Positions 2,331 to 31,140 of a stretch of 45,037 bases of DNA are shown here, piece by piece (position 1 is the stretch's first letter; every line of letters starts with the position of its first letter). The stretch is taken from the IMG/VR virus record IMGVR_UViG_3300028800_000020, positions 1-45,037 of that record, one strand, 5' to 3'. The notes beneath the pieces were generated by a model. That model did not search any database. It was given only the letters and a program-made list of their open reading frames with translations, and was not told the origin of the DNA. The translations under genes and the position numbers were made by a program. The stretch is from a virus.

Positions 2331-3284
2331 CTAAGCCCGCACGCTTAGGCCAAGCCTCTTCGCCATGCGCGCTATCTCCGGCCACTTAACCAAGTGGCAC
2401 CCGGCTTTAACGTCGCCTTCCGGCGTTATTTCGTCAATCTCAAACACGCCTAGCGGTATCTTGTGGCCGTTCTTAACCCAGCCATTGCCGCGCGCCTTGG
2501 CGATTAGAGGGAAAGCCCTGGTCGCGTGGTGCACTGGAAATTCGGCGCCGGCGCTGGTCAAGATGTTTTCGCCGTGGCGCCGTAACAAGACGCCATAGTT
2601 TTGTTTTATCCATTCCAACATGGCCATCGGGGTTTTGTTTACCGGCAATCCCGCCCGCCATATGCGCGGCCACTGTGACCGCTCGGCCTTCAATACGCCT
2701 TCCGCGTGCTGATAGCGGGCTTCGATATGCGCCAAGCGTCCCTTTTCCCGCATGGCAATTTTGCGCTTTTCGGCGTCGGCATAGCGTTGCGCCATAGATG
2801 CAACATCACCGCCGAGCATCAGCGGTTTATAGCGCGACACAAACGCGGCGCCAAACTCGTTCCGTCTCATACAAACTTGCGTTGCTTCTAAGGCAAGCCT
2901 AGCTTTCTTGCCCTTGTGTTTTGTCTGGCCACTTTCGGTGAGAAGCTTCCTTATCTCGGCGTCAAACAAATCAAGGTTAGTGCTGGCGTTACTGCTAGGC
3001 TGTTTCACATAGAAGCTAGGCAAGTCACTACGTAAGGCGCGGCGAACTATGCTTTGATGCTTGCTTGTCGAAACCGAGTAGGAAGAGGAATTGATTAGAA
3101 CGCAATTCTCTCCCTTCAGTGTCTTGGCGAACGAGGCGATTGCGAAGTGTCGGCCGTAGGAATAGATTGCATTACCATCCCAAAACATCCGGCCATCGGC
3201 CGAGCGGCCGTGAGAGATATTTCGCTGGGCCCATACATGCGCGGTTTGCTCATGTGATCCAAAGACTGTTTTAGCTCTAGGCAT
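2331..3284 (-). CDS. Conserved phage hypothetical (SHxxxAHxWA / YSYGxHF family, 317 aa)
   Basis: The N-terminus carries the pattern I recall from a widespread phage and plasmid family, probably DUF8033: GSHEQTAHVWAQR, then RMFWDGNAIYSYGRHFAIASF at residues 9-53, followed by an Asn-Ser-Ser-rich stretch (LINSSSYSVSTSKHQ). The function of this family is unknown to me. Residues 155-210 look like a charged helix (SMAQRYADAEKRKIAMREKGRLAHIEARY). The C-terminal third contains a conserved-looking patch (ILTSAGAEFPVHHATRAFPLIA) and ends in CHLVKWPEIARMAKRLGL. AAAGGAG precedes the ATG by 9 bases. The family name is from memory. Confidence 0.8.
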   Translation of the reverse strand: MPRAKTVFGSHEQTAHVWAQRNISHGRSADGRMFWDGNAIYSYGRHFAIASFAKTLKGENCVLINSSSYSVSTSKHQSIVRRALRSDLPSFYVKQPSSNASTNLDLFDAEIRKLLTESGQTKHKGKKARLALEATQVCMRRNEFGAAFVSRYKPLMLGGDVASMAQRYADAEKRKIAMREKGRLAHIEARYQHAEGVLKAERSQWPRIWRAGLPVNKTPMAMLEWIKQNYGVLLRRHGENILTSAGAEFPVHHATRAFPLIAKARGNGWVKNGHKIPLGVFEIDEITPEGDVKAGCHLVKWPEIARMAKRLGLSVRA

Positions 3285-5218: not shown

Positions 5219-5364
5219 GACGGGGGTGGGGTGCCGGGTATCCCCCTGATTTTTGCGCCTCAGTGGAGTTCGACCACCTTTTCTCACACGCGGCGGCCCA
5301 AAAATAAAAGAGTTTCTAAAAAGTGAACAAAATCAAAGGGGCTTGAAAACAATGATATTTTTCC

Positions 5365-5392
5365 TTGACTTACCAGGGTGCCATGCTAAACT
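5365..5392 (+). promoter_or_regulatory. Rightward promoter, predicted start at the terS ATG
   Basis: -35 TTGACT (5365-5370), 16-bp spacer, extended -10 TGC-TAAACT (5384-5392). A transcript starting 7-8 bases downstream would begin at the ATG at 5400, giving a leaderless terS message. Confidence 0.6.
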
Positions 5393-5399
5393 CGCGAAC

Positions 5400-5996
5400 A
5401 TGCCCCAAAAAGACACCCCCATCCACGGCGCCCTGCTAATTCCGAAGGAATATAAACTCGGCCCGGCGATGTCGAAGCTGACCGAGCGCCAGCGGGCGTT
5501 TGTGGTGGCGCTCCTCGACTTCGGTGGCATCAACCCGAACAAAGCCGCGAGGATGGCGGGGTACTCCGTGGCCGATGGCGGCGCCGGTTTAGCCGTAACC
5601 GCTCACCGCCTGGCGCACGACGAAAAAATCCAGGACGCAATTCAGGAAGAAGCCGGCCGGCGTCTGAGAACCGGCTCGATTATGGCCGTGAAGACCTTGC
5701 TGGAGATTGCGGACAATCCGGCCGCGGAGCACCGCGACAGGCTCAAAGCTGTGGAGATGATCTTGAATCGAACCGGCCTTCACGCGATCAGCGAAAAGAA
5801 CGTCACCGTCACCCATGTCGATCAAACCAGCGACGAGATGATTAAGCGCATCGCGCTCCTCGCCAGGAACCAAGGGCTCGATCCGGTGAAATTGCTCGGG
5901 AATGCGGGTGTCGTGGTTGACGCTGACTTCAAGGAAGTGGTGGAAACGCCGGAACCAGTCGAGCGCGACCCGAACGATTTAAGTGATTTGCTGTGA
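5400..5996 (+). CDS. terS: Terminase small subunit
   Basis: Recognises phage DNA and hands it to the large subunit for packaging. The N-terminal region has the terminase-small-subunit helix-turn-helix pattern KLTERQRAFVVALLDFGGINPNKAARMAGYS (residues 25-56). It is followed by a helical oligomerisation region (RLKAVEMILNRTGL) and an acidic tail (EPVERDPNDLSDLL) of the kind that contacts TerL. The start at 5400 has no ribosome-binding site but sits exactly where the promoter at 5365-5392 would start transcription. An alternative in-frame ATG at 5352 has AAAGGGGC 10 bases upstream and would give 214 aa; I cannot exclude it. The stop overlaps the TerL start (GTGA). Confidence 0.85.
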   Translation: MPQKDTPIHGALLIPKEYKLGPAMSKLTERQRAFVVALLDFGGINPNKAARMAGYSVADGGAGLAVTAHRLAHDEKIQDAIQEEAGRRLRTGSIMAVKTLLEIADNPAAEHRDRLKAVEMILNRTGLHAISEKNVTVTHVDQTSDEMIKRIALLARNQGLDPVKLLGNAGVVVDADFKEVVETPEPVERDPNDLSDLL

Positions 5997-7435
5997 CCGA
6001 GAATAACAAACTTAAAGAATTGCTGGAAACGCTCGAAGCGATCGAACAGCGACGGAAGTTCCGCAAGCTCGACTTCTACCAGCCTTACCCCAAGCAGGAA
6101 GAGTTCCACGCTCTCGGCGCTCGTTGCAGGGAACGCTTGCTGATGGCCGGCAACCAGCAGGGTAAAACTTATTCCGGCGCCGCGGAAGTCGCGATTCACA
6201 TGACGGGAGAATACCCGGAGTGGTGGGAGGGCCGGAGATTTACGAAGCCTGTGAAGTTTTGGGTCGCCGGGGAAACCTCGGCGCTGGTCCGCGATCAGCC
6301 TCAAGCTTTGCTCTGCGGGACGCCGGGTGTGGTTGACGACGCAGGTACAGGGCTGGTGCCGAAAGTATCGTTAAAAGATGTTTCTCTCGCTCGCGGTGTC
6401 ACTGATGCGTTCGACACGATCCAAGTAATTCATAAGACCGACGGCATCGAGGACGGTATATCGACTGCCGTGTTCAAGTCCTACGAGCAAGGCCGGCAGA
6501 AATTTCAGTCCGCAACCCTTGATGGGCTGTGGCTCGACGAAGAACCCGACGAGGAAATCTACCAGGAGTGCCTGGCGCGTATCACCGCGACGGATGGATT
6601 GCTGTTCATGACCTTCACTCCGCTGAAGGGCCGGAGCAAAGTCGTCATCAGATTCATGGACGAGGCGTCCGAGGACCGTGGCATTGTCCACATGGACATC
6701 GACGACGCCAAGCACATCAAACCAGAAGACCGTGCCAAGATCATCGAAGGCTATCTACCTCATCAACGCGAAGCCAGAGCGCACGGCGTTCCTCTTCTCG
6801 GTTCGGGCGTGATCTTCACGATGCCGGAAACTAGCGTCAAGGAAAATGCGATCGAGAATGTTCCTATCTACTGGCGGAAGATTTGGGGTATCGACTTCGG
6901 CATCGGCCATCCTTTCGCAGCCGCTCTGCTTTTGTGGGATGTTGACAACGATGTCATTCATGTCCATCACACAGTGAGGATGGCTGATGTGTTCCCGATC
7001 AACCACGCCGCGGCGATGAAACCGATCGGCGCTGCGGTTCCCGTTGCGTGGCCTCAAGACGGTACGGCGCGCGAGGCAGCCGGCGGAACGCTCGCTTCGC
7101 TCTACTCCAAAGAAGGCCTGTTGACTTTGCCCAGCCACGCGACCTGGCCGCAAGGTGGGTATTCCACCGAAGCCGGCGTCGAGGAGATGCGGGAGCGGGA
7201 ACAGAACGGCAAGCTCAAATATGCCGCGCATCTCACCGATCTCTTCGAGGAACGCCGCTTTTACCACAGGAAAGACGGCGAGATCGTGAAGATCAAGGAC
7301 GATATATTATCGGCCATAAGGATCGGTATCATGATGAAACGCTTTGCAAAACCGGTGGTCTTAGGCGGCAAACGCCAGAAACGCCAGGGTAAGCTCCTCG
7401 CAACGGGGCTTGACTTCAATGTCTTCGGGGAGTAA
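5993..7435 (+). CDS. terL: Terminase large subunit (ATPase-nuclease)
   Basis: DNA-packaging motor and headful/cos nuclease. ATPase domain: Walker A GNQQGKT (residues 53-59), Walker B LWLDEE with D182/E183, and coupling motif TFTPLKGRS near 208-216. Nuclease domain: first acidic residue D301 in GIDFGIGHP, probable second D356 (WPQDG), and D436/D437 in KIKDDILSAIRIG. The length of 480 aa is typical of podovirus TerL. It begins with GTG overlapping the terS stop (GTGA), so the two subunits are coupled. An initiator-type tRNA gene starts 8 bases after its stop codon, within the same transcription unit. Confidence 0.93.
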   Translation: MTENNKLKELLETLEAIEQRRKFRKLDFYQPYPKQEEFHALGARCRERLLMAGNQQGKTYSGAAEVAIHMTGEYPEWWEGRRFTKPVKFWVAGETSALVRDQPQALLCGTPGVVDDAGTGLVPKVSLKDVSLARGVTDAFDTIQVIHKTDGIEDGISTAVFKSYEQGRQKFQSATLDGLWLDEEPDEEIYQECLARITATDGLLFMTFTPLKGRSKVVIRFMDEASEDRGIVHMDIDDAKHIKPEDRAKIIEGYLPHQREARAHGVPLLGSGVIFTMPETSVKENAIENVPIYWRKIWGIDFGIGHPFAAALLLWDVDNDVIHVHHTVRMADVFPINHAAAMKPIGAAVPVAWPQDGTAREAAGGTLASLYSKEGLLTLPSHATWPQGGYSTEAGVEEMREREQNGKLKYAAHLTDLFEERRFYHRKDGEIVKIKDDILSAIRIGIMMKRFAKPVVLGGKRQKRQGKLLATGLDFNVFGE

Positions 7436-7443
7436 TGTGGGGG

Positions 7444-7520
7444 AGCGGGGTGGAGCAGCCCGGTAGCTTGCCAGGCTCATACCTTGGAGGTCGGGGGTTC
7501 GAATCCCCCTCCCGCAACCA
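7444..7520 (+). tRNA. Initiator-type tRNA-Met (CAT)
   Basis: A full 77-nt cloverleaf with encoded CCA, derived from bacterial tRNA-fMet. Acceptor AGCGGGG/TCCCGCA has an unpaired A1.A72, the initiator hallmark. The D-stem GAGC/GCTT has A11-U24, also initiator-specific, with a G10.U25 wobble. The anticodon loop CTCATAC reads AUG. Anticodon stem CCAGG/CTTGG replaces the usual three G-C pairs with A29-U41, G30.U40 and G31-C39. T-arm GGGGG-TTCGAAT-CCCCC is perfect. It lies 8 bp after terL and 21 bp before the next gene in the late transcript, so it must be cut from mRNA. Confidence 0.93.
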
Positions 7521-7541: not shown

Positions 7542-7748
7542 GTGGACAGCCCTAAAAATCTTTCGCCGGCTTCCGTCGATCTCGGGCTTGGCGATATCTT
7601 GAAGGACCAACTCGCTCTCCAGTCCGAAGCCGCGCGCAAGGCCGCGCTGAAGAAATCCGGCGCTTCCGAAGCCCAGCAAGCGATGAGCCCGGCGACGAAT
7701 GCTCTTTTCAACTTCCTTGGCGGAGGCGCAGATGCAGCCCTCAATTAG
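7542..7748 (+). CDS. Small protein upstream of portal (68 aa)
   Basis: A small helical protein with the segment SVDLGLGDILKDQLALQSEAARKAALKK and a Gly-rich tail (NFLGGGADAAL). Short proteins with a similar LGLGDIL element often lie between terminase and portal in podoviruses; the function is unknown. GTG start with GGAG nine bases upstream. The 3' end overlaps the next gene by 17 bp. Confidence 0.7.
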   Translation: MDSPKNLSPASVDLGLGDILKDQLALQSEAARKAALKKSGASEAQQAMSPATNALFNFLGGGADAALN

Positions 7749-7890
7749 TTTCCCGCGTAACCAGCCACGGCAGCAGCCGAAGATCGTGGCTGTGATCCCC
7801 GGCGATCCGCCGGCCGATCAGACGCCGCCCCAAAGTTATACGGCGGCGATTTCCATAACCGCTCCGCTCCCGAAAGTCGGCAATGGCTGA
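7732..7890 (+). CDS. Small Pro-rich protein (52 aa)
   Basis: Start at 7732 (MQPSISFPRNQPRQQPK), chosen because GGAGG lies five bases upstream; a longer frame would begin inside the previous gene without a binding site. Residues 5-35 are Pro/Gln-rich and probably extended. It overlaps its neighbours on both sides (portal ATG at 7883), a sign of tight coupling. Not recognised; possibly a minor virion or assembly peptide. Confidence 0.55.
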   Translation: MQPSISFPRNQPRQQPKIVAVIPGDPPADQTPPQSYTAAISITAPLPKVGNG

Positions 7891-9607
7891 TACCAGTTTG
7901 ACGCCGCGCAAGCAATCCGAACGCGAGGAGATGATCGTCTCCGAGACGCTGCGCGAGTTTTCGGAACTTCAGACCTATCGTAACGTCTTCGCTTCGCATT
8001 GGGAAGAAGTCGCGGAACTGATCCTGCCGACTTACCGCAATACTTTCATGTTCGGTAATTACAACTGGCCGGGCCAGAAGAAGACCGATCGTCAGGTTGA
8101 CGCCACCGGCATGATGGCGCTGTCGCGCTTCGCCGCTATCTGCGACAGTCTTTTGACGCCGCGTAATTCCTACTGGCACGGCCTCGAAGCCAACGACCCT
8201 TATGTCATGAAGGACCGCGCTACGCGGCTTTGGTTTGAGAGCACCGCCAAGAAACTCTTCAAGTATCGCTACGCCGCGCAAGGCAACTTCAGCGCGCAGA
8301 ATCAAGCCAACTATCAATCGCTCGGCGCTTTCGGCAACGCGCAGATGTTCATCGACGAGTTCGATGCGACGTTGAGTGGCGTCAAAGGTCTTCGCTACAA
8401 AGCGGTGCCGATGGGCGAACTCTTCTACCGCGAGAACCATCAAGGCATGGTGGACGGTTTCGTTCGCTGGTTCCGGCTCACCGCGCGCCAGGCAAAGCAG
8501 AAGTGGCCGGAGACTTTCCCGGCTGTCCTGCAAGCTGCGCTCGAAGCGAACAGCGAACAGCTTTTCGATTTCTTGCACCGTGTTGTCCCGCGGACCGACT
8601 TTGAACCCGGCCGGCTGGACATCAAGGGTAAGCCCTACGCCTCGTATTATGTTTGCATGAAAAGCCAAACCCTTCTGCAAGAAGGCGGCTATCGCAGTTT
8701 CCCCATGGCGGTGTCACGTTACGACCAATCGCCAGGCGAAGTCTATGGCCGCAGTCCGGCAATGATGGTCCTTCCCGCGCTCAAGACCTTGAATGCGGAG
8801 AAGCGGACGTTCCTCAAACAGGGACACCGTGCGGCTGACCCGGTGCTTTTGACTAATGATGACGGGCTGTTGAGTTTCGACTTGACCCCCGGCGCTATGA
8901 ACCCTGGCGGCATGAATCCCGACGGTAAGCCGCTTGTCGGCGTGTTACCGACCGGTAACATTCAGATCACCGAAGACATGATGAAAGAGGAGCGCGCGCT
9001 CATCAACGACGCCTTCCTCGTAACGCTGTTCCAGATTCTCACCGAGACCCCGACGATGACGGCAACCGAAGTGATCGAACGCACCAACGAGAAGGGTATT
9101 CTCTTGGCGCCGACGATCGGTCGTCAGCAGTCCGAATACCTCGATCCGATGATCCATCGCGAACTCGATCTCCTGTCGAGCCAGGGTCTTCTCGATCCGA
9201 TGCCCCCGCGCTTGCGCGAAGCGAAAGGCGCATACGATGTCGTCTATACCTCACCGCTTTCGAAGGCGATGAAGGCTCAGGAAGCCGCTGGTTTCTTCCG
9301 CACAATCGAAGGTGTCAAGGAATTGATGGCTGTGTCGCAAGACCAGTCCTTGCTCGATCGCTTCGACTTCAATACTGCGATCCCTGCTATCGCCGATATC
9401 CAGTCCGTGCCGGAAAGCTGGATGGCGGACGACAAACAAGTTGCTGCGAAACAGAAGGCGCGCGCCGACGCCGCCCAGCGCCAAGAGATGATCCAAGCTG
9501 CACCCGCGGCCGCTGCGATGATGAAGGCCCGCGCTGCTTCAGGCGCCGCGGCACCCGCTCAGGCGCCGGCACAACCAGGACCCCCGTTGACACAATCGGG
9601 GGCATGA
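7883..9607 (+). CDS. Portal (head-tail connector) protein
   Basis: Forms the dodecameric ring through which DNA enters and leaves the capsid. It matches the T7-type head-to-tail connecting family (PF12236) in length (574 aa) and in signature stretches: FASHWEEVAELILPTYRN near residue 40, RQVDATGMMALSRFAAICDSLLTPRNSYWHGL near 73-105, SRYDQSPGEVYGRSPAMMVLPALKTLN in the middle, and LTETPTMTATEVIERTNEKG (about 388-407). The C-terminal 60 residues are Ala/Pro/Gln-rich and probably disordered. It follows the terminase and precedes the Bbp19-like and scaffold genes, the standard late order. Confidence 0.93.
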   Translation: MADTSLTPRKQSEREEMIVSETLREFSELQTYRNVFASHWEEVAELILPTYRNTFMFGNYNWPGQKKTDRQVDATGMMALSRFAAICDSLLTPRNSYWHGLEANDPYVMKDRATRLWFESTAKKLFKYRYAAQGNFSAQNQANYQSLGAFGNAQMFIDEFDATLSGVKGLRYKAVPMGELFYRENHQGMVDGFVRWFRLTARQAKQKWPETFPAVLQAALEANSEQLFDFLHRVVPRTDFEPGRLDIKGKPYASYYVCMKSQTLLQEGGYRSFPMAVSRYDQSPGEVYGRSPAMMVLPALKTLNAEKRTFLKQGHRAADPVLLTNDDGLLSFDLTPGAMNPGGMNPDGKPLVGVLPTGNIQITEDMMKEERALINDAFLVTLFQILTETPTMTATEVIERTNEKGILLAPTIGRQQSEYLDPMIHRELDLLSSQGLLDPMPPRLREAKGAYDVVYTSPLSKAMKAQEAAGFFRTIEGVKELMAVSQDQSLLDRFDFNTAIPAIADIQSVPESWMADDKQVAAKQKARADAAQRQEMIQAAPAAAAMMKARAASGAAAPAQAPAQPGPPLTQSGA

Positions 9608-22347: not shown

Positions 22348-23869
22348 CATCCAGCAATACAATTCGCCGATCGACAAGCTTGAACCTTCGGATCGCGGCA
22401 TAGACGCGCTTGCTCGCGAAGGCCGTGAGATCGGTACGCCTTACCGCGAGATGGGCGAACAAGTCGGTAAGGCGAGTTCCCAACTTGGGGCCTTTATTAC
22501 CCAGCACGAAACGATGTCTGAGATCAGCCAAGGCTCTGCGGCTCTTGCTGTCATGCACAATAATCTCACGACGCAATGGAACCAGATAGCGGCGACCGCA
22601 GACCCCAACGATCATACAATTCAGGAGAAGTTTCTCAACGATACAGCGGAGCCTCAACTCGCTGCGTTCTCCGGCGGCTTTGACACGGAGCGCGGCCAGG
22701 AATGGGCCCTCTCACAAGCTGATTCGCTCCGCACTCATTTGTGGGACAAGACTTCTGCGGATATGAGCGCCCGCGCCGGCAACGCGATCGTTCTCAATCT
22801 CAAGACCACTCTCAGCAATTTATCCGACGCCGCCCGCAAAGACCCGTCGTCGATAAGCCAATCTCTCGGTCAGGTTGACGCAGTTGTCGCGGCATCGAAG
22901 GCGAATAGCGCGGGCGTGCTCAACCAAGAGCAATTGGACAAGCTCGACGACATGAGCCACGACATGAAGAATGAGATCGTCAAGTCTGGCGTTATGGGCA
23001 TGGCCGATGTCAATCCAATGGCAGCGGTAAAGACAATCGACAGCGGTGGTTTGAAGGATTATTTGTCCGGCCCTGAAGCGGAGGAATTAAAGAAATACGC
23101 CGAAGGTGTAACTCGGATGAAGCTCGAAGACGAGTCCCGGGCTTACGAGAATAAGCAGCGCGCGCAAACAGAAACCGACGAGGCCGCTACTACAAAGGTT
23201 ATCAATAGCCTTTACAATCAAGATACCGGGCGGTTGACAATCCCCGACAATATCAACCAACAGATATGGTCGATGCCGGGGGTGAGTGGTAAGGCGAAGC
23301 TTGGGATGCTTGGCGCGGTAAAGAACATCTCGAAAGAGACTGTTGACGATGATCCTAAGATGATCGAAGATTTCGCGTCACGCTTGAAATCGAACAGCGA
23401 CAGCCCCCTCACGCAAGACGATCTCCTCACAGCTATGGCCACCGGTCATATGACGCCTTCGACCTTTAACTTCTTTAATGAGCACTTGAAGAACACGCCG
23501 GACACGCACGCCGAGAATGAGATGGTCGCGCAGACGATGGATCAGTGGAAGAACAATATCCTCAAGCCGCAATTCGGTCAGCCGAACACCCCCGGCGCTG
23601 AAGATGCTTACACCCGCTGGCAGACTTGGTTCTTGCCAGCCTACGCTTTGGCGAAGAAAGACCCGAGCCTTGCTGGTATGAGTGAAGCGCAGAAAGCGCA
23701 AACGCTTCTCAGCCCCGACAGCCCGAAGTATATGTTGACGCCGGAGTTGATGAAGAAGTTCATGGCCGCTGGCGATGACTTGATCCCCGGTATGGTAAGC
23801 CCCGGTCAACCGCTGCCTTCTGGTAACGACCGCAAACCTCTCGATCAAATCTTCGGGCCGAAACAGTGA
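22337..23869 (+). CDS. Internal virion protein (gp15-like, 510 aa)
   Basis: Second large ejection-type protein. Start at 22337 (MAGNIQQYNSPIDKLEPSDRG), with GGGAG seven bases upstream and a small overlap with the previous gene. The protein is almost wholly helical, rich in Gln/Asp/Lys, without cysteine or signal. The opening NSPIDKLEPSDRGIDALAREGREIG and QVGKASSQLGAFITQHETMSEISQGSAALA match podovirus internal virion proteins that I recall. It probably builds the ejection channel with the flanking genes. Confidence 0.75.
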   Translation: MAGNIQQYNSPIDKLEPSDRGIDALAREGREIGTPYREMGEQVGKASSQLGAFITQHETMSEISQGSAALAVMHNNLTTQWNQIAATADPNDHTIQEKFLNDTAEPQLAAFSGGFDTERGQEWALSQADSLRTHLWDKTSADMSARAGNAIVLNLKTTLSNLSDAARKDPSSISQSLGQVDAVVAASKANSAGVLNQEQLDKLDDMSHDMKNEIVKSGVMGMADVNPMAAVKTIDSGGLKDYLSGPEAEELKKYAEGVTRMKLEDESRAYENKQRAQTETDEAATTKVINSLYNQDTGRLTIPDNINQQIWSMPGVSGKAKLGMLGAVKNISKETVDDDPKMIEDFASRLKSNSDSPLTQDDLLTAMATGHMTPSTFNFFNEHLKNTPDTHAENEMVAQTMDQWKNNILKPQFGQPNTPGAEDAYTRWQTWFLPAYALAKKDPSLAGMSEAQKAQTLLSPDSPKYMLTPELMKKFMAAGDDLIPGMVSPGQPLPSGNDRKPLDQIFGPKQ

Positions 23870-26800
23870 GCGACCCTGCCGAGGACCAATCGACCCCGCA
23901 ACAGATTGCGGCGCCCTCTGTTGTTGACCAGAGCGCACAAGCTCGTACCGCCGGCTATTCATGGGGCGATATCAATTCGCATCTCGATGATAAGAGAACC
24001 CAGGCTAAAGCCGCAGGGTATTCGGACGAAGAGATCAACAAGTATTTGGGGCTGCAATCGCCGAAAGAGCCCGACCAGTCTCACCCCGATCCGTCTCCAC
24101 TCCAAGCGAACGATAACACGCTGCCGGCGCAGATACGACAGTTCGCGAATAAGTACCTCACGCCAAGTATGGAGCAGCCTGGGTATGTAGAACCGTCCGC
24201 GGCGCAGATACAGGCTGATGGCTTCTGGAAGAACCTCGGATGGTCGGCGCTCGACGTTGCAAAAATCTTTGGCAAACCGTTTGTGAATGGCGTCGCCGAT
24301 CTCCTCGACTACAGCGCCGGGGGTCTAAAGCCCGGCGAGAATATGAGCCCTGAATCCGTGGGCGCTTTAATGGTTCTGTCGCCAACATCCCCCGTTGGTT
24401 TTAAAGCTGGCGCCGCGCCGAAAGAAGTTACACCGATCCCCAAGCCCGAAGAAGTAATTGACGCCGCGACGGCTGTGACGGGTCTCAAAGGCCCCCAAGC
24501 AGTTGACAATGGTGTCGGCACGGCGATGACAAATCTCGCTCAGCATTGGACCAAGACAGGCGAGCCGCCACTCGACGCCGCCAAGCGGGCTCAGTCCGAT
24601 CCTGTGTTCCGCCAACAGATACAAGCGCCACCGCCACCTGAAGTTCCTACCGGTTCCTCGGCGACACCGACGGTTGATGGCGCCTTTGTCATCGGCAAGA
24701 TGTCGGAAGAAAATCCATTGCCTCCTATCGAGAAGGCCCCGCTCGGCGATAACCCGAATGCTTGGGAGCATGTAGCTAGTCGCATCGCGGATATCGGCGA
24801 AGGCCCGACGCCGTGGGAACAAGTTAAGGCCGCCGGGTACAGGACTTACCTCGATCTATTCAACCCCGATCATCCTATCCGCGCGCTCGTCGATGCGGTT
24901 GAGGAAGGCAAGAAACTCCCCGACATGGAGAACCCGAACTATCTTTATCGTTTCGCCGAACTGTCGAATACCCGTTCGCAGTATATGGTCGAACGCAAGA
25001 TGATCGATATTGACGGGAACGTAGTCGGCAAAGGGCTCAATGAAATCCTCGATCCTCTGAAGGGCAAAGAAGGTGACTTCTGGACTTACTCCGTGGCCAA
25101 GTGGGCCGTCGAGAAGGCTGAGCAAGCGAAAGAGACCGGCGTTGATGTTGATGCAGCAAAGCAAGTTGTTGTGGAAGGCGACAGTCGTTTCCGCGAAGCC
25201 TTCGGATCGCTTGTCGATTGGCAAAACGGAACGCTGAAATACGCACGCGATGGCGGCTTGATCTCGAAAGAAAACTACGACAAGATGGTCGCCGAAAACC
25301 AGGCGCGCATCCCAGGCTACCGTGCCGAAGAGGAAGCAAGCGATAAGGTCCGCGGTCCTGGGCCGGGCAAGACCGCCTTCAGCCCTGTCAAAAAGTTTTT
25401 CGGCTCCGACAAGAAGATCGAACCTATTTTGAAAAGCTTATTGCAGGAAGCTTTCCTGCGCGTCGAACTCGCCAATCGCAACCGCGCTAATCTAGCTCTG
25501 GCCGACATCGCTGAAGAGACTGGTCTCGGTGGCAAGGTGTCGAACCAAGCACGCCCAATCGAACTCACCGACCAGGAACTCCTTAACCTCGGTATCCAGA
25601 ACTTAGAAGCAGCGCGAGAAGACGGCGCCGCAACGATCTTTCGGGCTTTCGGCCAGCATGTAGGTGCAGACGAGGTTCCTATCTTCCGTGACGGTAAGAT
25701 GGAAGTCTGGAAATTCGAGGACCCTGATCTCACGCGGGCGTTGCGTGGTTACGATCAGACCAGCTTGACGACATGGCGTAAGCTCGCCGCCGGCATGACC
25801 AAGATAACGAGGAACCTGATCGTCCTCAATCCTTTCTTCCCGATCCGGCTTATGGACTACGACATCCCTTGGCAGTTTATAACCAAGCCGGGTCTGCGTA
25901 ATACGCTCGCCGATTTCTACGTCGGGCTCAAGAACATTGCTGGCGGTTCGAAAGCTTACGATGCATGGATGCGGTCCGGCGGCGCTGAGCGTATCTTCGA
26001 CGGCCTAACGCGGAACAGCTACATCAAGGAAGTTCTCAAGGGCCATGCCGACCCAGCCTACACTGATGGTGTCTGGAATGCGATCAAGTCGCCTTACCAT
26101 GCTCTGCGTAATTGGGCGCAATTACTCAACCAATCGCAGCGCGTCGGTCGCTATATCCGCGGCCGCCAAGCTGGTGAGAGTGGACCTAAAGCCGCGGCAG
26201 CTTCGACTGACGCAGCATTTCACCGCGCTGGGTTCGGCGGTCCGGCTGCGAAGTCTTGGAACTCGGTCGCACCATTCACCGCGGCGTACTTGAATAGTTT
26301 GGAACAAACCGTGCGTGGTATGTTTGGAATTGGCAAGACTATAACAGGCGATGCAAACAGCGCCGCGCAATTCAGCGCCAAGGCAGCGGCTATCATAACC
26401 ATCCCGATGCTGGCCAATTGGTTCAACGGCCACGATAAGGATTGGTACAAGGCTGCGCCGGACTGGCAGAAAGACAACGGCTTGCTGATCCACATCGGCC
26501 CCGATGATGGCGGCCACACGGTCTTCTTTAAGTTCCCGCCGGTCCTCTCCTTTCTTTATGGTGCTCTGCCGCGCCGTTTGATGGAAGCCTTTGTCGCTGA
26601 TAACCCTCACGCATGGGATGGGATCGGTAAGAGTTTCGGTTCCAGCTTCGCCCCGCCCGGCGGCTTGCTCACATACAATGTGTTTCTGCCGTTGCTTGAA
26701 CAACTGGCGAACCATAGCTTCTTCCGCGACCAGCCACTCGTACCGGACGACCTTAAGCGCAACGTCTTGACACCCGAGCAATACAATAACTATTCGTCGG

Positions 26801-27471
26801 GTACGGCAAAGGGCTTATCGCGCTTCGTCAATGATCTGCCGTTGCTGCGTAACTTTGGTCTCTCGCCACCTGTGATCGATAATTACATCCAGGATTGGGG
26901 TGGCACGATTGGTACGATGGCCGTCAGATCGGCCGATCTTGCTCTTGGCACCGGGCCGCACCACGCTGGCGCTCCGGCTCCGCATCTCGAAGACATGCCT
27001 GGCATTTCCTCGTTTCTGTCGCGTTACCCTTCTGCGTCCGCAGCGCCTACGCGGGACTTCGAGACCCGTATGGACAATTACAACGCCGTTCATGGTTCGC
27101 TGATGCGCGCGATGGAAGCCGGCGATCTGGCCCGCTTCCAACAGATCGTTAAAGAGAACCCAGCCGCGGCCGCTATGCACAAGTTTCAGTTCAACCAAGA
27201 GACGATGGCGAAGGTGCCTTCTGGCCAAGACATGATGCCGTACACGAATGCCTTGCAACAGGCGGCCAAGCAGATAAACACCGCCGACGCCCAGCGAGTT
27301 ATGAACGCGGAAAAGGCGTTAAAGAACATGAAGGAATACGCACAATCCGTGAACTCGAACACAAAGTTTACCCCCACGGATAAGCGCCAACTCCTTGACC
27401 AGACTTACAGTTGGATGCAGGAAGTTTCTCAGCGGGGGATTGGTTCTATGGATCGGGCTGGTTTACCTTGA
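23866..27471 (+). CDS. Large internal virion / DNA ejection protein (1201 aa)
   Basis: Third and largest ejection protein, at the T7 gp16 position; GTG start overlapping the previous stop (GTGA). Residues about 25-65 carry two copies of AxxAGYSxxxINxxL, a repeat common at the start of such phage giants. Residues about 620-1010 resemble the large polyvalent protein associated domain LPD38 (NPFFPIRLMDYDIPWQFITKPGLRNTL; STDAAFHRAGFGGPAAKSWNSVAPFTAAYLNS; a hydrophobic ITIPMLANW patch). No lysozyme or transglycosylase catalytic motif was seen, unlike T7 gp16. The C-terminal 150 residues are helical. The stop codon lies inside the -35 of the next promoter. Confidence 0.75.
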   Translation: MSDPAEDQSTPQQIAAPSVVDQSAQARTAGYSWGDINSHLDDKRTQAKAAGYSDEEINKYLGLQSPKEPDQSHPDPSPLQANDNTLPAQIRQFANKYLTPSMEQPGYVEPSAAQIQADGFWKNLGWSALDVAKIFGKPFVNGVADLLDYSAGGLKPGENMSPESVGALMVLSPTSPVGFKAGAAPKEVTPIPKPEEVIDAATAVTGLKGPQAVDNGVGTAMTNLAQHWTKTGEPPLDAAKRAQSDPVFRQQIQAPPPPEVPTGSSATPTVDGAFVIGKMSEENPLPPIEKAPLGDNPNAWEHVASRIADIGEGPTPWEQVKAAGYRTYLDLFNPDHPIRALVDAVEEGKKLPDMENPNYLYRFAELSNTRSQYMVERKMIDIDGNVVGKGLNEILDPLKGKEGDFWTYSVAKWAVEKAEQAKETGVDVDAAKQVVVEGDSRFREAFGSLVDWQNGTLKYARDGGLISKENYDKMVAENQARIPGYRAEEEASDKVRGPGPGKTAFSPVKKFFGSDKKIEPILKSLLQEAFLRVELANRNRANLALADIAEETGLGGKVSNQARPIELTDQELLNLGIQNLEAAREDGAATIFRAFGQHVGADEVPIFRDGKMEVWKFEDPDLTRALRGYDQTSLTTWRKLAAGMTKITRNLIVLNPFFPIRLMDYDIPWQFITKPGLRNTLADFYVGLKNIAGGSKAYDAWMRSGGAERIFDGLTRNSYIKEVLKGHADPAYTDGVWNAIKSPYHALRNWAQLLNQSQRVGRYIRGRQAGESGPKAAAASTDAAFHRAGFGGPAAKSWNSVAPFTAAYLNSLEQTVRGMFGIGKTITGDANSAAQFSAKAAAIITIPMLANWFNGHDKDWYKAAPDWQKDNGLLIHIGPDDGGHTVFFKFPPVLSFLYGALPRRLMEAFVADNPHAWDGIGKSFGSSFAPPGGLLTYNVFLPLLEQLANHSFFRDQPLVPDDLKRNVLTPEQYNNYSSGTAKGLSRFVNDLPLLRNFGLSPPVIDNYIQDWGGTIGTMAVRSADLALGTGPHHAGAPAPHLEDMPGISSFLSRYPSASAAPTRDFETRMDNYNAVHGSLMRAMEAGDLARFQQIVKENPAAAAMHKFQFNQETMAKVPSGQDMMPYTNALQQAAKQINTADAQRVMNAEKALKNMKEYAQSVNSNTKFTPTDKRQLLDQTYSWMQEVSQRGIGSMDRAGLP

Positions 27472-30274: not shown

Positions 30275-30383
30275 CGGCAGCGAACTCGGCGTTGAACGGA
30301 AGATCGCGGAAGTCGGGCATGAGTATTACGACTGCGCCGATCGGCACGCCGCGCTAGTCCAGGCGATTAAACCGGTTCAATAA
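30108..30383 (+). CDS. Rz1: o-spanin (Rz1-like lipoprotein, 91 aa)
   Basis: Outer-membrane spanin, started inside the i-spanin gene in a different frame, with AGAGGA nine bases before the ATG. The signal peptide (MPNTKRLTTFLTLLLALWLSASTLGGC) has lipobox LGGC at residues 24-27, so the mature protein begins with a lipidated Cys. A short Pro-rich stretch (PSVVPPPVPADL) follows, as usual for Rz1, then a longer charged tail. The gene extends 109 bp beyond the i-spanin stop and is the last rightward gene; its stop lies within 7 bp of the oppositely oriented HNH gene. Confidence 0.85.
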   Translation: MPNTKRLTTFLTLLLALWLSASTLGGCAWLMTPSVVPPPVPADLLSLCPDLQPLTDGSELGVERKIAEVGHEYYDCADRHAALVQAIKPVQ

Positions 30384-30718
30384 TTCCAATTTCTGGAAGC
30401 TATATGCGCGGCCGCTTTAAGCACCGCGGCTCTGTGATCCCGCCGTCTTATATTTTCAAGAGGCGTCACACGCTCAAGATTTTTGCGCCGGCAATCAAGG
30501 CCGTCGCCGTTCTTATGATCTACGTCCTGGTTGCAGCGTGCTCGCACCAGGAACCGATGGAGATACCTCTTCTTGTTACCGATCGTAGCCCTGGCGTAAT
30601 AATTTGTCGGCTTTCCATACCGCTTCGATACATGGAGATGCCAACGATGCCTTTGGATAAGTGGCCAGTCTGCGTCATCGATCAGGACTTGGCGCCCTTG
30701 CGTCAACAAGACGTACAT
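30377..30718 (-). CDS. HNH endonuclease, probably homing (113 aa)
   Basis: DNA endonuclease of the HNH_3 type. The C-terminal part has DVDHKNGDGLDCRRKNLERVTPLENIRRR (residues about 64-92), holding the His-Asn-Asn framework. The N-terminal part (VLLTQGRQVLIDDADWPLIQRHRWHLH) is the usual preceding beta region with an aromatic core. The start at 30718 is chosen because the ATG overlaps the previous stop (TAATG); the longer frame upstream lies inside that gene. It is the last gene of the leftward block and converges on the spanins with overlapping ends, a typical site for a free-standing homing gene. Confidence 0.8.
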   Translation of the reverse strand: MYVLLTQGRQVLIDDADWPLIQRHRWHLHVSKRYGKPTNYYARATIGNKKRYLHRFLVRARCNQDVDHKNGDGLDCRRKNLERVTPLENIRRRDHRAAVLKAAAHIASRNWNY

Positions 30719-31140
30719 TAGATTTCCAGCGCGCGGACCATCTTGAGAAGATCGAAGTGGACCATGTTCGCCAGGCGGTACATCAGGTCCCAAATCTCCA
30801 TATTCCCTTCGACTAGGATATGAGTGTTCTTACCGAGCCCAGCCATATAGCCGAGTTCGAGATGACCGGACTTACCCGCTGGTAAAAGCAGAATACCGGT
30901 ATCGGCCGCTTTAAGGTGATGGTGGTCAAAGTTGAAATTCTTTGTGGCATTCTTTTCGAATAACGCCTCGACGTAGGAACGGCCGCGCTGTTTCTCATAG
31001 TCCCTCCAAATCTGATCGGCTTCGGGTCCGGCGCCAAACCAGTCGTCGAAAACCTCATGGCCACGGTCGCGCAGGGTCTTTGCGACGACAGGAATGCGGG
31101 TGTTCTTCAATGACCCGATCAGATAAATCTTGCGCCCCAT
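30718..31140 (-). CDS. Nucleoside 2-deoxyribosyltransferase-like protein (140 aa)
   Basis: Probable nucleotide-metabolism enzyme of the deoxyribosyltransferase-like superfamily. IYLIGSLKNTRIPVVAKTLRDRGHEVFDDWFGAGPEADQIWRDYEKQRG (residues 5-53) is followed by FDHHHLKAADTGILLLPAGKSGHLELGYMAGLGKNTHILV (about 69-108), which contains the family's nucleotide-binding PAG.S.HLELGY pattern. The exact substrate is unknown; salvage or hydrolysis of nucleoside monophosphates in support of replication is likely. It is coupled to the metallophosphoesterase gene upstream and the HNH gene downstream (both TAATG). Confidence 0.8.
   Translation of the reverse strand: MGRKIYLIGSLKNTRIPVVAKTLRDRGHEVFDDWFGAGPEADQIWRDYEKQRGRSYVEALFEKNATKNFNFDHHHLKAADTGILLLPAGKSGHLELGYMAGLGKNTHILVEGNMEIWDLMYRLANMVHFDLLKMVRALEI

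Follow-up and report, generated by a model that had tools for sequence, protein, structure and literature searches.

The window analysed here, the whole 45,037-base record of a podovirus-like phage, which is a virus of bacteria, carries a single tRNA gene, identified by ARAGORN as tRNA-Met(CAT) at 7444-7520 on the plus strand. The gene is genuine, of initiator type though divergent, and lies in the phage late operon; among the genes examined it alone combines C at position 38 with a G30.U40 wobble pair. We tentatively propose that this initiator of alphaproteobacterial type would sustain translation starts while host initiator is scarce or has been cleaved, with an anticodon arm that is probably a poor nuclease substrate.

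Sequence features and initiator type

The gene reads AGCGGGG TG GAGC AGCCCGGTA GCTT G CCAGG CTCATAC CTTGG AGGTC GGGGG TTCGAAT CCCCC TCCCGCA ACCA, with the CCA end encoded. Both ARAGORN and Rfam recognize a complete tRNA with a CAU anticodon, the RF00005 match at 7444-7517 reaching 51.3 bits against a gathering score of 29. Initiator tRNAs are marked by A1.A72, A11-U24 and the CAU anticodon; the absence of a Watson-Crick pair at 1-72 is a formylation determinant, and three G-C pairs at 29-31/39-41 make up the E. coli initiator form. The window gene has the A1.A72 mismatch, and its D stem GAGC/GCTT gives A11-U24. The anticodon arm CCAGG-CTCATAC-CTTGG (7471-7487, plus strand) pairs as A29-U41, G30.U40 and G31-C39, leaving one G-C pair out of three. 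As G30.U40 replaces the Watson-Crick pair G30-C40, we classify the gene as a divergent, initiator-type variant. The mismatch and these stem pairs, together with the wobble pairs G7.U66 and G10.U25, had been named in the initial annotation and are present as described. One further feature had been overlooked, namely C38 (position 7482, plus strand), at which cellular initiators have A.

With a covariance model made from 16 cellular initiators, the gene scored 85.2 bits (window E = 2.2e-17), whereas a model of 10 cellular elongator-Met genes gave 52.7 bits, 32 below the initiator model. The initiator model gave cellular elongators just 51 to 65 bits. A 77-nt gene cannot score 85.2 bits by chance, and the elongator family, which the initial annotation had named as the refuting outcome, is not the better match. 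The tRNA is likely to function as an initiator.

Genomic setting of the tRNA gene

The left part of the phage genome is ordered as small and large terminase subunits, tRNA, a small ORF, portal, capsid protein, and tail and lysis genes. On the plus strand, the terminase small subunit (5253-5996; Pfam Terminase_2, E = 3.6e-8) is followed by the large subunit, TerL (5993-7435; phrog_2, E = 1.8e-31), the stop of which lies 8 nt 5' of the tRNA. Directly downstream of the tRNA is a small conserved ORF with a GTG start (7542-7748, plus strand), with a homologous reading in the related locus L004, and then the portal or head-tail connector gene (7883-9607, plus strand; phrog_332, E = 2.5e-125). The right part holds replication genes, encoding DNA polymerase A, a Prim-Pol/AAA primase-helicase, exonucleases and a Gp2.5-like protein. 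The virion gene region also encodes a 1201-residue protein with an LPD38 domain, a large polyvalent protein (23866-27471). Elsewhere, a nucleoside deoxyribosyltransferase match (phrog_12607; 30718-31140) adjoins an HNH endonuclease-like ORF (30377-30793).

An equivalent gene succession is found in L004 (TerL 74% identical), L005 and L008, in which the tRNA is absent; in L004 the homologue of the small ORF lies directly 3' of the terminase with no tRNA between them. A scan of 32 TerL- or portal-relative loci revealed no initiator tRNA. Going by the scanned loci, the gene was thus either acquired or retained by the window lineage only. A conserved tRNA place in this phage group was considered and rejected, as L004, L005, L008, MW202898 and BcepC6B have the terminase-portal order with no tRNA annotated or found there; in BUCT708, no tRNA is annotated at this place. 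The more distant L009 (TerL 44% identical) carries fMet, Pro and Gly tRNAs (2598-3013), flanked by a weak terminase-small-subunit match and by TerL, and its initiator also has C38, but with T32 and a different stem.

We make no claim that terminase proximity is a general trend. Among 50 records searched out of at least 120 from IMG/VR, 19 had a terminase match, and in 7 of the 19 the tRNA lay within 5 kb of it by manual measurement, where 4.4 such cases would be expected (P = 0.11). The tRNA is near the terminase in five of six named phages viewed with their flanks, which were hand-picked.

Comparison with known phage-borne initiators

The initial annotation regarded a phage initiator as exceptional, a view that finds no support: phage T5 carries a gene annotated 'initiator tRNA fMet', and an initiator pattern is present in at least 120 IMG/VR stretches. 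In GenBank, 166 of 50,697 phage records have DNA similar to the window gene (E up to 0.01), and PMC12429752 describes lone tRNA-Met/fMet genes in Sinorhizobium prophages. T5 tRNAfM and the genes of CcrSC and QDWS359, all annotated tRNA-fMet, are phage-encoded and of initiator type like the window gene. However, these three keep A38, and the T5 gene is within a many-tRNA cluster, whereas the window gene stands alone in a packaging operon. Similar to the window, Erythrobacter phage vB_EliS_R6L has a CAU tRNA after the terminase and before an annotated portal (initiator model 88.0), but this tRNA has A38 and a D stem GCGC in place of GAGC, and hence is without A11-U24. The R6L gene (KY006853.1; L354:4001-4076) and that of Xanthomonas phage DoCa5 (ON932079.1; L352:1657-1731) are both initiator-like, directly 3' of the terminase and unannotated. 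In Sinorhizobium phage phiLM21 (KJ743987.1, 21148-21224; L353), the tRNA-Met is annotated on the strand opposite to that on which it reads as an initiator-like gene.

Relationship to alphaproteobacterial initiators

The nearest compared genes share 61 to 62 of 73 positions with the window gene and include alphaproteobacterial-type cellular genes (D loop CCC, A29-U41) as well as the phage genes L148, L178 and L208. The alphaproteobacterial-type tRNA-fMet, identical at 61 of 73 positions, shares the D arm GAGC...GCTN with its A11-U24 pair, the D loop AGCCCGGTA, A29-U41, G31-C39 and the mismatch at 1-72. The window gene differs from this type by C38 for A38, G30.U40 for G30-C40, A1 for C1, U25, C27-G43 and pairs in the T stem. 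Relative to the gene of this type in L273-L276, 12 of 73 positions differ, no stem pair is broken, and both partners have changed in three pairs, namely 27-43 and two of the T stem. None of the cellular genes read was identical to the window tRNA. The tRNA suggests an alphaproteobacterial host.

A29 is present in the named alphaproteobacteria Pseudovibrio japonicus and in Rhodospirillales and Alphaproteobacteria MAGs, while the initiator gene of Bosea, as stated in PMC8522696, has the E. coli arm, indicating that A29-U41 is not universal among alphaproteobacteria. The likeness to an AGG/CCU variant of rhizobial initiators, pointed out in the initial annotation, is correct for A29-U41 but is no oddity, as this pair is found in 14 of 14 distinct Pseudomonadota initiators read. 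Likewise, the anticodon stem does depart from three G-C pairs, yet G29-C41 is missing in all 14 of these genes and in 67 of 90 viral genes. A29-U41 is the common host form, and the rare part of the window stem is G30.U40.

Rarity of C38 and G30.U40

The viral set was drawn from at least 120 IMG/VR stretches with one initiator pattern, 14 of the 120 being removed for broken folds; this pattern is blind to initiators whose D loop differs or that have T32, such as that of L009. Among the matches listed, 90 distinct intact viral genes have G-C at pair 30-40 without exception and A38 in 88 cases, while pair 29-41 varies (A-U 50, G-C 23, U-A 17). The pattern was matched in 156 of 299 Pseudomonadota genomes and 85 of 100 Actinomycetota genomes. 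All 14 distinct Pseudomonadota genes have G-C at 30-40, no G30.U40 match was found in the 299 genomes, and the one genome among them with a non-A38 gene is the seed genome, which had been picked for this feature.

No other tRNA with the exact window anticodon arm was found in IMG/VR; two exact matches were discarded, as they are not tRNAs by ARAGORN. G30.U40 occurs in eight IMG/VR stretches, all of which keep A38. The viral contigs L263, L265 and L267 have in common an initiator-like gene with U31-A39, G30.U40, the arm GTAGT/ATTAC and A38, and form a small family of their own.

Non-A38 genes were found in 40 IMG/VR stretches, of which 31 are intact (one of them at a locus edge), and in 16 stretches from a collection of 84,980 species' genomes, of which eight are distinct and intact. 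Of these eight, one is identical to the gene of viral contig L211, one is on a plasmid and one directly adjoins a gene matching a phage neck protein. This last gene (L226:7740-7816), with T38, is from Pseudovibrio japonicus, which carries another initiator as well. A scan of two further cases, L236 and L237, for phage genes gave no match.

Of 92 distinct interior phage genes, 4 have a base other than A at position 38, versus 0 of 155 Pseudomonadota genomes (pattern-bearing genomes minus the seed genome; p = 0.018); among distinct contig-edge phage genes the count is 0 of 28. To form the interior set, 50 stretches were added to the earlier set, and any gene 250 nt or less from a locus end was left out. 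An earlier comparison of 2 of 90 with 0 of 155 had not reached significance (p = 0.13). The lower p value is thus a second look at related sequences, and the enrichment is suggestive only.

Anticodon-arm changes and initiator nucleases

According to PMC4105405, the VapC toxins of Shigella and Salmonella cut tRNA-fMet between A38 and C39. The window C38 is on the 5' side of this bond, and the gene has a substitution at or beside the cleavage site of a tRNA-fMet nuclease. Two VapC1 toxins of alphaproteobacteria have the same target: expressed in E. coli, that of Bosea cleaves tRNA-fMet, the anticodon arm being the inferred site (PMC8522696), and that of Rickettsia cuts in the anticodon arm. The sources conflict on the cut site, as PMC10264068 gives the anticodon itself as the target of VapC-LT2. 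The same paper proposes that phage tRNAs escape tRNA nucleases via loop changes and that fMet is generally avoided by phages; PMC12482277 also names fMet as a VapC target, and its phage Sf14 is without fMet. Similar to the evading tRNAs of PMC10264068, the window gene is changed at a residue beside a known cleavage bond. By that account, phages usually avoid the VapC target fMet, whereas the window phage has one, with putative resistance. Our literature search, mostly outside the reach of subscription papers, found no title or abstract on position 38 in phage initiators.

Based on these comparisons, we propose the following course. The initiator tRNA gene, acquired by insertion between terminase and portal, would be read through with the late operon, and the tRNA would be processed from the late transcript, then charged and formylated. 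Working in initiation alongside its host counterpart, it would let virion proteins go on being started late in infection. The altered arm, with C38 at the scissile bond, G30.U40 and the changed pair 27-43, would most likely make a poor substrate for initiator-destroying toxins such as VapC, and the phage tRNA would replace a cut host pool as well as enlarge it. The rare changes exactly at a toxin cut site suggest that the tRNA may be a cut-resistant spare. Nuclease evasion by this tRNA is plausible, a good guess that is unproven. The broader idea that changes at 38 and in the anticodon stem of phage initiators are selected escapes from tRNA-fMet nucleases is a bolder one that we consider unlikely on present evidence; the window gene, altering both 38 and 30-40, would be a strong example of it.

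Several observations count against the favoured reading, among them the anticodon cut site and the avoidance of fMet by phages given in PMC10264068. The bare tRNA transcript has a minimum free energy of -31.2 kcal/mol versus -26.5 kcal/mol for the cloverleaf, a preference of 4.7 kcal/mol for a non-cloverleaf fold, and its anticodon-stem pair probabilities are 0.02 or less in the unmodified form. In the same test, two cellular genes folded correctly and the phage genes L148, L009 and L218 gave mixed results. In addition, pairs 30-40 and 29-41 are the grip points of 16S A1339 and G1338, with A1339 bonding G30 (PMC11497404), and G30.U40 falls on the pair gripped by A1339. As G30 is retained, partial function is plausible.

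Alternative explanations

A simpler account is that initiation limits late protein synthesis and the phage adds initiator tRNA to raise dosage, the arm changes being near-neutral drift. We regard this as a serious possibility, if less than probable. The late-operon position fits it, stem drift at 29-41 is general among the 90 viral genes listed, and A38 is kept in 88 of 92 distinct interior phage initiators, indicating that evasion at 38 is no general rule. It accounts less readily for the fact that position 38 and pair 30-40 hardly vary elsewhere and that the window gene alters both. The gene might instead be a passenger acquired by chance and losing function. Its restriction to one lineage, which also weighs against the cut-resistant spare, agrees with such decay, as do the three wobbles and the poor predicted folding; yet the stems are unbroken, some pairs have changed in both partners, and the gene retains an encoded CCA and the 1-72 mismatch, making decay rather improbable.

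The initial annotation suggested that the tRNA may favour GTG, TTG or leaderless starts. By longest ORF, 24 of 31 starts are ATG, four are TTG and three are GTG (the small ORF at 7542, left out of this count, would add one GTG), so that there is no excess of other codons; three of the seven non-ATG starts have an in-frame ATG within 14 codons. The ATG share is close to the bacterial average of about 82% AUG in PMC11497404. The same source lends the idea that a weakened 30-40 grip permits GTG, TTG or other phage-used codons some footing, as changing G30-C40 to C30-G40 in E. coli loses discrimination against CUG. Since the window tRNA retains G30, the base contacted by A1339, and the starts are mostly ATG, start-codon retuning is unsupported and very unlikely. 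Least credible, and largely refuted, is that the gene is an attP/attB copy of a host tRNA. Many IMG/VR initiators do lie at contig edges (28 distinct, all A38), and the phiKX1 gene is near an integrase gene, across the record start. However, a search of the whole window record for a tyrosine integrase (PF00589) gave no match, the gene is inside the packaging operon, and none of the cellular genes read is identical to it.

Implications

The pair G30.U40 provides a naturally occurring case for probing how far an initiator can dispense with the 16S grip. Against anti-phage defence that destroys tRNAs, PMC10264068 proposes that phages answer with spare tRNAs carrying altered anticodon loops. This raises the question whether a similar answer exists at the initiator, which every protein needs and which phages, by the same paper, mostly avoid. 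Since phage initiators altered at the VapC scissile bond do occur, whereas cellular ones almost never are, the question is directly testable. Should the bolder idea of selected escapes be true, phages would be using initiator tRNAs that resist cutting as an answer to host toxins that shut initiation down.
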